Below are positions 13,358-20,470 of a stretch of DNA of 43,582 nucleotides, one piece after another; within the stretch, counting starts at the first letter, position 1; the number at the start of each line of letters is the position of its first letter. The DNA is from Desulfobulbaceae bacterium (GTDB lineage Bacteria; Desulfobacterota; Desulfobulbia; Desulfobulbales; SURF-16). The notes beneath the pieces are model-generated. The model did no database searches, had not been told where the DNA came from, and worked only from the letters and a program-made list of their open reading frames with translations. The position numbers and the translations under genes are program-made. The stretch lies in assembly GCA_002868945.1 (NCBI GenBank), contig PKTX01000072.1, forward strand, positions 1-43,582, in the 5' to 3' direction.

Positions 13358-14806
13358 ATGCGCACCCCCGTAACTATTCGCACCATACCCGATCCCCGTT
13401 TTGTCATGACCAGTTTGCTGGTCGCCTTTTTCTTGGTACTGCAACCCATGCTGGACCAGGCCCGGGCCGCCCGCCCGGAAAGCTTTGCCGACCTGGTGGA
13501 GAGCCACGGCGCCACCGTGGTCAACATCTACACCACCCAGACCGTCAAGGCCCCCACCCTGCCGCAGTTCAACTTCAAGGGCTCACCCCATGAACTGCCT
13601 GAACTCTTTGAGCGATTCTTCGGCAACCCGCACACAGCGCCCAACGGTAAACCGCGTACCCAAAAGCGCACCAGTCTCGGCTCCGGTGTACTTGTCTCAG
13701 TGGACGGCTATATCCTCACCAACAACCATGTTATCGAGAATGCCGATGAAATCCATGTCCGTTTTGCCGATCACAAGGAATTTGAGGCCAAGATCATCGG
13801 CCGTGACAAGATGACCGATATTGCCCTGATCAAGATCGATACGGAGGAGAGGCTGCCCTTTGTTAAATTCGGCAACTCCGAAAAGCTGCGCGTCGGCGAC
13901 TGGGTGGTTGCCATCGGCAATCCCTTCGGCTTTGAGCAGACTGTCACGGCCGGTATTGTCAGCGGCATGGGCAGAACCCTGGGCAACGGTGCCTACGACA
14001 ACTTCATCCAGACCGATGCCTCCATCAACCCCGGCAATTCCGGCGGTCCCCTCTTTGATCTTGATGGTAAGATGGTGGGCATCAACACCGCCATCTACTC
14101 CCGCTCCGGCGGCAATATCGGCATCGGTTTCGCCATTCCGGTAAACATGGTGAAAAACGTCATGGACCAGCTCCTTGAACATGGTCAGGTGACCAGGGGC
14201 TGGCTCGGTGTCCGCATTCAAACGGTGAACCAGGATATTGCCGCACAATTCGGCCTTGATCGTCCCTATGGCGCCCTGGTGGGGCAGGTAGACAAGGACA
14301 GCCCCGCCGACAAGGCCGGCATCCGTCAGGGTGATATCATCATCCGCTTCAAGGACAAGGAAATCTCGGAAATGACCATGCTGCCCACCATGGTGGCCCA
14401 GACCCCGGTGGGAGAGAAGGCCAAGGTCACTGTCTTCAGAAAGGGCAAGGAAAAAAACCTCACCGTGACCATCGGCAAGCTCAAGGAGGAGAGCGACCTG
14501 AGCCAGGCGGTGGAGGAAGAAACCGCCTCACTGGGCATGACCGTTCAGGAGCTCACGCCGGAGCTGGCCGAATCCCTGCAGCTTGGCCAGGCCACCGGCG
14601 TCTTGGTCAGCAATGTTGAAAGCGGCAGCCCGGCCGCCATGGCCGGTCTCAGGCGCGGCGACCTCATCACCGAGCTCAACCAGCAGGAGGTCTCCGATCT
14701 GGACAGCTTCAGCGCCTTGCTGAGCCAGGCCAAGGAGGCGGACAGAATTCTCCTGCTGGTCCAGCGCGGCGCCCAGAGCCGCTACGTGGTGCTCAAGACC
14801 AACTAG
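13358..14806 (+). CDS. degP: Periplasmic serine protease of the DegP/HtrA (Do) family
   Basis: DegP-type proteases degrade or refold misfolded envelope proteins. The 482-residue precursor has a basic N-terminus and a signal-like helix (VMTSLLVAFFLVLQPML, residues 16-32) with a probable cleavage after the ARA near 35-38. The trypsin-like domain shows His124 (LTNNHVIENADEI), Asp154 (MTDIALIKID) and Ser228 (NPGNSGGPLFD). Two PDZ domains follow (about 255-360 and 385-480), each with a GVLV or GALV-type carboxylate loop. The length matches the family. It follows the sigma and anti-sigma genes, so it is the likely target gene of that sigma factor. A strong bidirectional terminator follows at 14837. 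Confidence 0.96.
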   Translation: MRTPVTIRTIPDPRFVMTSLLVAFFLVLQPMLDQARAARPESFADLVESHGATVVNIYTTQTVKAPTLPQFNFKGSPHELPELFERFFGNPHTAPNGKPRTQKRTSLGSGVLVSVDGYILTNNHVIENADEIHVRFADHKEFEAKIIGRDKMTDIALIKIDTEERLPFVKFGNSEKLRVGDWVVAIGNPFGFEQTVTAGIVSGMGRTLGNGAYDNFIQTDASINPGNSGGPLFDLDGKMVGINTAIYSRSGGNIGIGFAIPVNMVKNVMDQLLEHGQVTRGWLGVRIQTVNQDIAAQFGLDRPYGALVGQVDKDSPADKAGIRQGDIIIRFKDKEISEMTMLPTMVAQTPVGEKAKVTVFRKGKEKNLTVTIGKLKEESDLSQAVEEETASLGMTVQELTPELAESLQLGQATGVLVSNVESGSPAAMAGLRRGDLITELNQQEVSDLDSFSALLSQAKEADRILLLVQRGAQSRYVVLKTN

Positions 14807-14836: not shown

Positions 14837-14878
14837 CAAAAAAGGCCGCTTCCCAACAATGGGAGGCGGCCTTTTTTT
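14837..14878. terminator. Bidirectional rho-independent terminator between degP and trpF
   Basis: The stem AGGCCGC-TTCCCA pairs with TGGGA-GGCGGCCT around the loop ACAA. It is preceded by six A and followed by seven T, so it can stop transcripts from both sides. It ends degP on the plus strand and the trp unit on the minus strand, which are convergent. Confidence 0.88.
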
Positions 14879-18394: not shown

Positions 18395-19879
18395 CTAGAT
18401 GCCCTTTTCGGCCAGCTCCACGGCACGCCGCAGGCCCCGCGACTTGTTCAGGGTCTCCTGATACTCCATCTCCGGATCAGAGTCGGCGACAATACCGGCT
18501 CCGGCCTGGACCCAGAGATCAGTGCCGTGCATGACAAAGGTACGGATGGTGATACTGAAATCCATATTGCCGGAAAAACCAAAATAGCCCACGGCGCCGG
18601 CATAGGGGCCGCGCCGCTCCGGCTCAAGCTCCTCGATTATCTCCATGGCCCGCACCTTGGGGGCGCCGCTCACCGTGCCGGCGGGAAAACAGGCCCGTAC
18701 CACATCAAACTGATCGCAGCCCTCGGCAAGTTCACCGCGCACACCCGAGACAATATGCATGACATGGCTGTAGCGCTCAACAACCATCAGGTCATAGGTA
18801 TTGACCGTACCATACCTGGCCACCCGACCCACATCATTACGGCCCAGATCAACCAGCATCAGATGTTCGGCACACTCCTTGGGATCGGCCAGCAGCTCTT
18901 TCTCCAGGGCAAGATCCTCGGCCGCCGTCTTCCCCCGCGGCCTGGTGCCGGCAATGGGCCGCACCTCCACCTTGTCATCCTCCAGACGCACGAGAATCTC
19001 CGGCGACGAGCCGATCTGGATGGTATCGCCCATTCTGACATAGAAAAGATAGGGACTGGGATTGATATGACGCAAGGCCCGATAGAGAAGAAAGGGCGGG
19101 ATTTCGGTTGTCGTGTGAAAACGCTGGGAGAGAACCACCTGGATGATGTCGCCGGCCATGATGTACTCCTTGGCCTTACGCACCATGGCGCGGAAGGCCT
19201 CCGGCTCCATATTGGCGGTGAACTCGTGGGCGGAAAAGCTACTGTTGCCCTCCACCACGTCATAAGGCAACGGTCGCCTCTTGAGTCTGGCGATCACCGC
19301 ATCAATATCGCGCTGGGCCTGCTGGTATACCTGGTCAAGGTCATCGCCCGCCGCCACCTGTACACAATGGACCACACTCAGGGTCTGCCTGAGGTTGTCA
19401 AAAATCAAGACAAAGCGCGGCACCATGAAGGAGCTTTCCGGCAGCTCGTCCAACGGCGCATTCCTGGCGGGCAGACGCTCCATGAAGCGCACCATGTCGT
19501 AGCCGAGAAAGCCGACAGCGCCGCCGAAAAAGCGCGGCAGGAAGTCACTCTCCGTGCAGGCGTTAAAGGAATCAAGCAGCTTTTTGAGCTCTGCTAAGGG
19601 GTCGCCGCGCAATTCGGTGACTTGGTCACCCCGGCGGATTTTGATCAGGTTGTCCCGGCTCTCAAAGGTAAGGAGCGGATCGTAGCCCACAAAGGAGTAG
19701 CGGCCCCACGTCTCGCCCCCCTCCAGGCTTTCCAGCAAAAAGGCATGGGACTCATCACCGGCCAGCTTGGCAAAAACAGTGAGCGGCGTGTCAAGATCCG
19801 CCACCATTTCCCGACACACAGGAATCAAGCCCGCGCCCTTGGCCAGCTCTTTGAAATCTTGCAAACCTGGTTTATACAT
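18395..19879 (-). CDS. trpE: Anthranilate synthase component I (TrpE)
   Basis: TrpE makes anthranilate from chorismate. From the ATG at 19879 the product has 494 residues and starts MYKPGLQDFKELAKGAGLIP, matching the usual N-terminus of the family. The frame stays open upstream to a TTG at 19948, but that extension runs into the terminator hairpin. FLLES near residue 46 is the tryptophan feedback site. The chorismate-binding domain shows GDIIQVVLSQRF, SPEILVRLEDDKVEVRPIAGTRPRG, LMLVDLGRNDVGRVA, FPAGTVSGAPKVRAMEII and GYFGFSGNMD. It is first in the trp unit and is preceded by a terminator-containing leader. Confidence 0.97.
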   Translation of the reverse strand: MYKPGLQDFKELAKGAGLIPVCREMVADLDTPLTVFAKLAGDESHAFLLESLEGGETWGRYSFVGYDPLLTFESRDNLIKIRRGDQVTELRGDPLAELKKLLDSFNACTESDFLPRFFGGAVGFLGYDMVRFMERLPARNAPLDELPESSFMVPRFVLIFDNLRQTLSVVHCVQVAAGDDLDQVYQQAQRDIDAVIARLKRRPLPYDVVEGNSSFSAHEFTANMEPEAFRAMVRKAKEYIMAGDIIQVVLSQRFHTTTEIPPFLLYRALRHINPSPYLFYVRMGDTIQIGSSPEILVRLEDDKVEVRPIAGTRPRGKTAAEDLALEKELLADPKECAEHLMLVDLGRNDVGRVARYGTVNTYDLMVVERYSHVMHIVSGVRGELAEGCDQFDVVRACFPAGTVSGAPKVRAMEIIEELEPERRGPYAGAVGYFGFSGNMDFSITIRTFVMHGTDLWVQAGAGIVADSDPEMEYQETLNKSRGLRRAVELAEKGI

Positions 19880-19946
19880 AATACAGATATCCTCTTCACC
19901 GGCGGGCCGCGCCGCCATCTTTACCCGTACCACAAAAGTACCGCAC

Positions 19947-19988
19947 AAAAAAAGCCATGGAGCCGGGTTACGGTTCCATGGCTTTTTT
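19947..19988 (-). terminator. Terminator hairpin in the trpE leader (attenuator candidate)
   Basis: A 12-bp stem (54-65 with 71-82 of 19900) with a 5-nt loop is flanked by seven A on the left and six T on the right. On the minus strand it ends in seven U, 68 nt before the trpE start. It could simply end rpsT, but two upstream segments can pair with each other or with the terminator arm. On the minus strand these are GGAACCG at 20066-20060 and CGGTTC at 20045-20040; the terminator arm also holds GGAACCG, at 19977-19971. That is the layout of an attenuator. No tryptophan-rich leader peptide is present. Confidence 0.75.
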
Positions 19989-20194
19989 CAGAAAAAGAGT
20001 CGGCAGAGTTTGCCGCCGGAGAACGCCAAGCCTGGAGCAGAACCGAAAATGCACCCTAACGGTTCCTGTGGTCTTGCATCTCCTTCTGTTGCGGCCCGAG
20101 GTCTCATTGTTTCTTATGAAGCGGCAGCAGGCGCCACTGGATGAACCTCTTTGCTCAGATTATCTCTTAAAACATGCACTTGCCGGTGCACGGG

Positions 20195-20470
20195 CTAGGC
20201 GGCACTCTCGACAAACTTATTGACCCGCTTGGTGAGGCGAGAAACCTTGCGTGAGGCATTTTCCTTTTTCAGGGTGCCCTTGGAGGCGGCCTTCATGATT
20301 ACCGGCACAGCCTCTTTGAGGGCCTGACGGGCGTTATCCACGGAGTTTTCGGCAATGGCCGTATCAATCCGTTTGATGTGGGTCTTGACCTGGGTACGGA
20401 TTGCACGATTACGGGCCCGACGTACGGCATTCTGCCTGTTTCTCTTTAATGCTGATTTATGATTTGCCAC
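20195..20470 (-). CDS. rpsT: 30S ribosomal protein S20
   Basis: S20 binds 16S rRNA in the small subunit. The 91-residue basic protein starts at a GTG codon (20468-20470), giving the family N-terminus ANHKSALKRNRQNAVRRAR after the initiator residue. GAGG lies 7 nt upstream. It continues with KTHIKRIDTAIAE and ends in KGTLKKENASRKVSRLTKRV. A longer ATG-started frame exists, but the N-terminus and SD favour the GTG. The start codon lies inside the last codons of the upstream small membrane gene. A weak hairpin follows the stop. Confidence 0.95.
   Translation of the reverse strand: MANHKSALKRNRQNAVRRARNRAIRTQVKTHIKRIDTAIAENSVDNARQALKEAVPVIMKAASKGTLKKENASRKVSRLTKRVNKFVESAA

Follow-up and report, generated by a model that had tools for sequence, protein, structure and literature searches.

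Terminators that precede the trp genes are central to several described regulatory systems, and both T-box trp leaders and TRAP-controlled trp leaders work through one. In the ribosome-mediated attenuator of the E. coli trpL type an intrinsic terminator lies directly before trpE, and the same arrangement is found in the window, by which we mean the whole stretch of 43,582 nucleotides from a Desulfobulbaceae bacterium (PKTX01000072.1) analysed here; however, in neither the window nor the Desulfobulbales as an order does a leader ORF contain Trp codons, and a conserved antiterminator is missing from both. The window also differs from T-box trp leaders in having no T-box match, and from TRAP-controlled leaders in that the TRAP gene (PF02081) was found in none of 58 genomes, with a positive result for the B. 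subtilis control. An ordinary Rho-independent terminator of a ribosomal-protein gene has in common with this locus a strong G+C stem, a T tract and order-wide conservation such as that seen for rpsI, but in the window's clade the hairpin forms part of the 5' leader of trpE, and no promoter was detected between it and the gene.

The trp genes of the window begin with trpE, followed by trpG, D, C and F, and the features considered here are listed in Table 1. TrpE retains the FLLES motif, which we take to be part of the Trp feedback site of this enzyme. The protein also aligns to solved anthranilate synthases (PDB 5cwa). The small hairpin directly after rpsT is a possible minor terminator for that gene and is not conserved. 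We note that a bidirectional terminator (AAAAAAAGGCCGC..GCGGCCTTTTTT) lies at 14838-14877, between the convergent trpF and degP-like protease genes.

Table 1. Positions of the genes and leader features discussed in the text (window coordinates).
Feature	Position	Strand	Remarks
degP-like protease gene	13358-14806	+	ORF; convergent with trpF
trpE (anthranilate synthase component I)	18395..19879	-	PF00425 and PF04715
T tract to trpE ATG, 67 nt	19880..19946	-	3' end is GAGGAT, ribosome-binding-site-like
Intrinsic terminator (predicted) AAAAAAGCCATGGAACCGTAACCCGGCTCCATGGCTTTTTTT	19947..19988	-	A tract, GCCATGGA stem, CCG/CGG upper stem, T tract
Segment 3, GGAACCG in terminator 5' arm	19971..19977	-	Conserved in genus
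Segment 2, CGGTTC	20040..20045	-	Not conserved
Segment 1, GGAACCG	20060..20066	-	Not conserved
Small hairpin GTGCAC..GTGCAT then GTTTT	20174..20191	-	3 nt past rpsT stop
rpsT (ribosomal protein S20)	20195..20470	-	PF01649, synteny; same strand, upstream of trpE

The larger hairpin has the G+C-rich stem and following T tract expected of an intrinsic terminator, with an energy of about -25 kcal/mol when the A and T tracts are included. We collected 110 trpE loci (certain genomes are represented twice), and in nearly all of those from the Desulfobulbales rpsT lies directly 5' of trpE with an orthologous hairpin at the junction between them. Pairing has been kept, as two-sided compensatory changes are seen at 8 of the 12 stem pairs, and the window terminator scores 54.1 bits with a covariance model made for the hairpin of this order (the model was partly built from it). 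From its sequence, we identify this hairpin as an intrinsic terminator that is conserved and separates rpsT from the trp operon; transcription is expected to end there. Conservation of the stem was also considered as proof of a special function, but this was overturned by the rpsI terminator used as a control, the stem of which (GGGAAG..CTTCCC) is equally well kept across the order. The exact GCCATGG..CCATGGC-T5 hairpin was found in the 58 genomes mostly at trpE (some 19 places) and at 8 other places; these adjoin unrelated genes (bamA/mfd, a ppaC-like gene, lpxC and others) and are unrelated single terminators, and the hairpin is therefore not a regulon element.

The initial annotation had described a terminator with neither a Trp leader peptide nor a T-box, and this part of it holds, the terminator being a strong one. 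No ORF with tandem Trp codons is present in the gap upstream of the window terminator, and none of 91 Desulfobulbales loci has a Trp-rich leader ORF; an Rfam scan returned no family matches, including T-box, and the T-box core was not found before trpE. The TrpR gene (PF01371) was found in only two of the 58 genomes and not in genome G000. Our own motif search recovered clade-specific blocks and no leader motif common to the order, and a literature search found nothing on the trp leaders of this group among the papers covered.

Outside the order but within the same phylum, three or more Trp codons fall within four codons in 53 of 106 trpE leaders (in antisense, in none), compared with the 0/91 noted above. 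Terminators in this outgroup often begin with GCC(A/G)TGG. Run on 162 kb of outgroup trpE loci, the covariance model returned 93 matches, with 38 of 99 loci matched at E values up to 0.1; 185 kb of rpsT/rpsI loci gave 2. Inspection by eye of 28 rpsT genes from outside the order showed no such hairpin after any of them. The window hairpin resembles, on sequence comparison, the terminators of outgroup trpE genes and is unlike rpsT terminators elsewhere, and the matches at outgroup trpE together with their near-absence at rpsT/rpsI suggest that it came with trpE. It probably derives from an ancestral Trp attenuator, as the terminator nearest to trpE. It should be noted that only about 16 outgroup loci score above 30 bits, and that an ordinary terminator of the GGCC type, located 3' of trpF in the window, scores 27.9 bits with the same model; this and the conservation of the rpsI terminator mean that neither score nor stem alone proves homology or special function.

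Some 22 outgroup leaders have two tandem terminators, the second mostly 14-35 nt from trpE. An attenuator terminator followed by a GCC(A/G)TG-type terminator before trpE is seen at L165, L169, L170, L171, L178, L222, L224 and L227, and likewise at L236, L237, L239, L255, L258, L260 and L276. In such leaders the 3' arm of the first terminator pairs with the 5' arm of the second at -11.8 kcal/mol within the same genome versus -10.0 kcal/mol across genomes, and none of 5000 permutations gave as low a value as the former. These values agree with a relay, antitermination at the first terminator disarming the second as well, but would be expected equally from hairpin duplication or from genomes that are related.

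We lean towards an explanation in which the hairpin is a constitutive terminator left behind by a Trp attenuator that has lost its sensor, with read-through feeding the trp genes and feedback acting at TrpE. The sequences themselves show where the terminator lies and that it is conserved, that a Trp leader and conserved antiterminator pairing are missing, and that classical Trp leaders with similar terminators occur outside the order; how control works, the ancestry, and both termination and read-through are what we infer. A ribosome-mediated Trp attenuator in an ancestor would have lost its leader peptide and antiterminator, probably at the time when rpsT took its place upstream, and the hairpin is most likely its remaining terminator. 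Polymerase that enters from rpsT, or that starts at some undetected site in the gap, would mostly stop at the hairpin, which would act constitutively and end rpsT transcripts, and the fraction reading through would provide trp mRNA. Control by tryptophan would then be exerted mainly through feedback inhibition of TrpE. In two related families, f11 and f12, a new promoter below the hairpin would make it no more than a plain rpsT terminator. In this way one could trace how a textbook regulatory switch was lost, from a sample in which half of the leaders outside the order are Trp-coded to the Desulfobulbales where the terminator is all that is left. If read-through is constant, expression of the trp genes follows that of rpsT and control by tryptophan lies at the enzyme, but if it is not, there is a new sensor to be found.

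An alternative, which we regard as unlikely for the window, is that the hairpin is a plain rpsT terminator and that trpE has its own promoter within the 67 nt between the T tract and the ATG. The presence of rpsT immediately 5' in nearly all loci would suit this, and so would the f11/f12 loci, in which the hairpin lies close behind rpsT and, in most cases, over 60 nt upstream of trpE, and where many have a clear TGGACA-N18-TATGGT promoter or a close variant of it below the hairpin; from these sequences, a terminator for rpsT with a separate trp promoter looks to be the true arrangement in f11/f12. The initial annotation had named just such an arrangement as the one that would undo its proposal, and it applies to these loci but finds no promoter support in the window's clade. 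There, no sigma-70-like promoter scored above shuffles on either side of the window hairpin (p = 0.98 and 0.97, the latter for the 67 nt below it) in a scan using hand-set, E. coli-like weights by which other promoter types can be missed. The lack of a promoter hit on both sides of the window hairpin also counts against the explanation that we prefer. The hairpin is also near trpE in f1, f4 and others, with 16-22 nt between the T tract and trpE in most f4 loci and 11-54 nt in many other loci, several of f1 included, and as the shortest of these gaps have no room for a promoter, trp transcripts must pass the hairpin in those loci.

The hairpin might instead belong to an active attenuator, as the initial annotation had proposed, in which segments 1, 2 and 3 toggle between termination (1:2) and antitermination (2:3) under the control of some protein or small RNA. 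The hairpin and all three segments are where that annotation had placed them and agree with the minus-strand sequence, and three 6-mers with this geometry occur in only 0.35% of dinucleotide-shuffled window leaders, so the set is above chance in the window leader alone, though it was chosen post hoc from a 43-kb window. Other forms of Trp control could exist given that neither TrpR nor TRAP was found, and several clades have conserved blocks upstream of the hairpin. Against this, the set is present in the window only and is absent from the 42 other leaders that reach 75 nt or more (43 with the window), and segments 1 and 2 have no counterpart in L002, L003 and L004 from the same genus, which keep the GGAACCG-armed terminator; the conserved alternative pairings of a trp attenuator are thus lacking. 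The best fold of the window leader (1:2 plus the terminator) is -56.4 kcal/mol compared with -34.4 kcal/mol when 2:3 is forced, a penalty of 22 kcal/mol. The suggested comparison across related genomes bore out the terminator stem, which covaries, but not the leader-to-terminator pairing, which was not enriched over shuffled leaders (mean z +0.24 over 29 leaders whose hairpin lies near trpE; the rank is 0.10 for the window and 0.025-0.065 for three related f14 loci and L050). The mutually exclusive switch is not supported by these results, and its reading by a protein or some other RNA gains no support from them; the extra pairings look like a peculiarity of the window genome with no working switch, and we consider an active attenuator of this kind decidedly improbable. 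Still harder to credit is an attenuator with a leader peptide for something other than tryptophan, encoded by a 39-codon ORF (MRPRAATEGDA..., approximately 20110-19991) whose stop immediately precedes the terminator. L002 and L004 have an equally long ORF that opens at a matching ATG and likewise stops directly ahead of the terminator, but in L003 the frame continues past this stop position, in each of the six species pairs substitutions are about equally spread over the three codon positions, the ribosome-binding site in the window is weak, and the ORFs have no regulatory codon in common. We rejected it as coding because it has no codon-position bias.

Against the constitutive remnant terminator that we prefer stand the conserved block of f4 and a conserved CCCATGG upstream of the f14 hairpin, which could pair with the terminator arm, so that clade-specific control may exist. 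We give little credence to the wider proposal that in this order a new sensor reading the trpE leader has replaced classical Trp attenuation and acts on the retained terminator, for instance through the f4 block or through the hairpin and GCAATGACAGAGTCGA of genera g5-g7. The f4 block, TTGTGCCTCTTCCGNCGTGCGCAGGGATCAG..CCTGTATATTATGAAGAGTG, lies directly 5' of the trpE terminator in most loci of this family (L043-L049, L063, L084 and L308-L327) and is promoter-like or structured. In g5-g7 (L012-L016 and L018-L020) a CCCC..GGGG-type hairpin follows rpsT and is itself followed by the conserved GCAATGACAGAGTCGA, which is possibly a short ORF starting MTES with its ribosome-binding site inside the hairpin.
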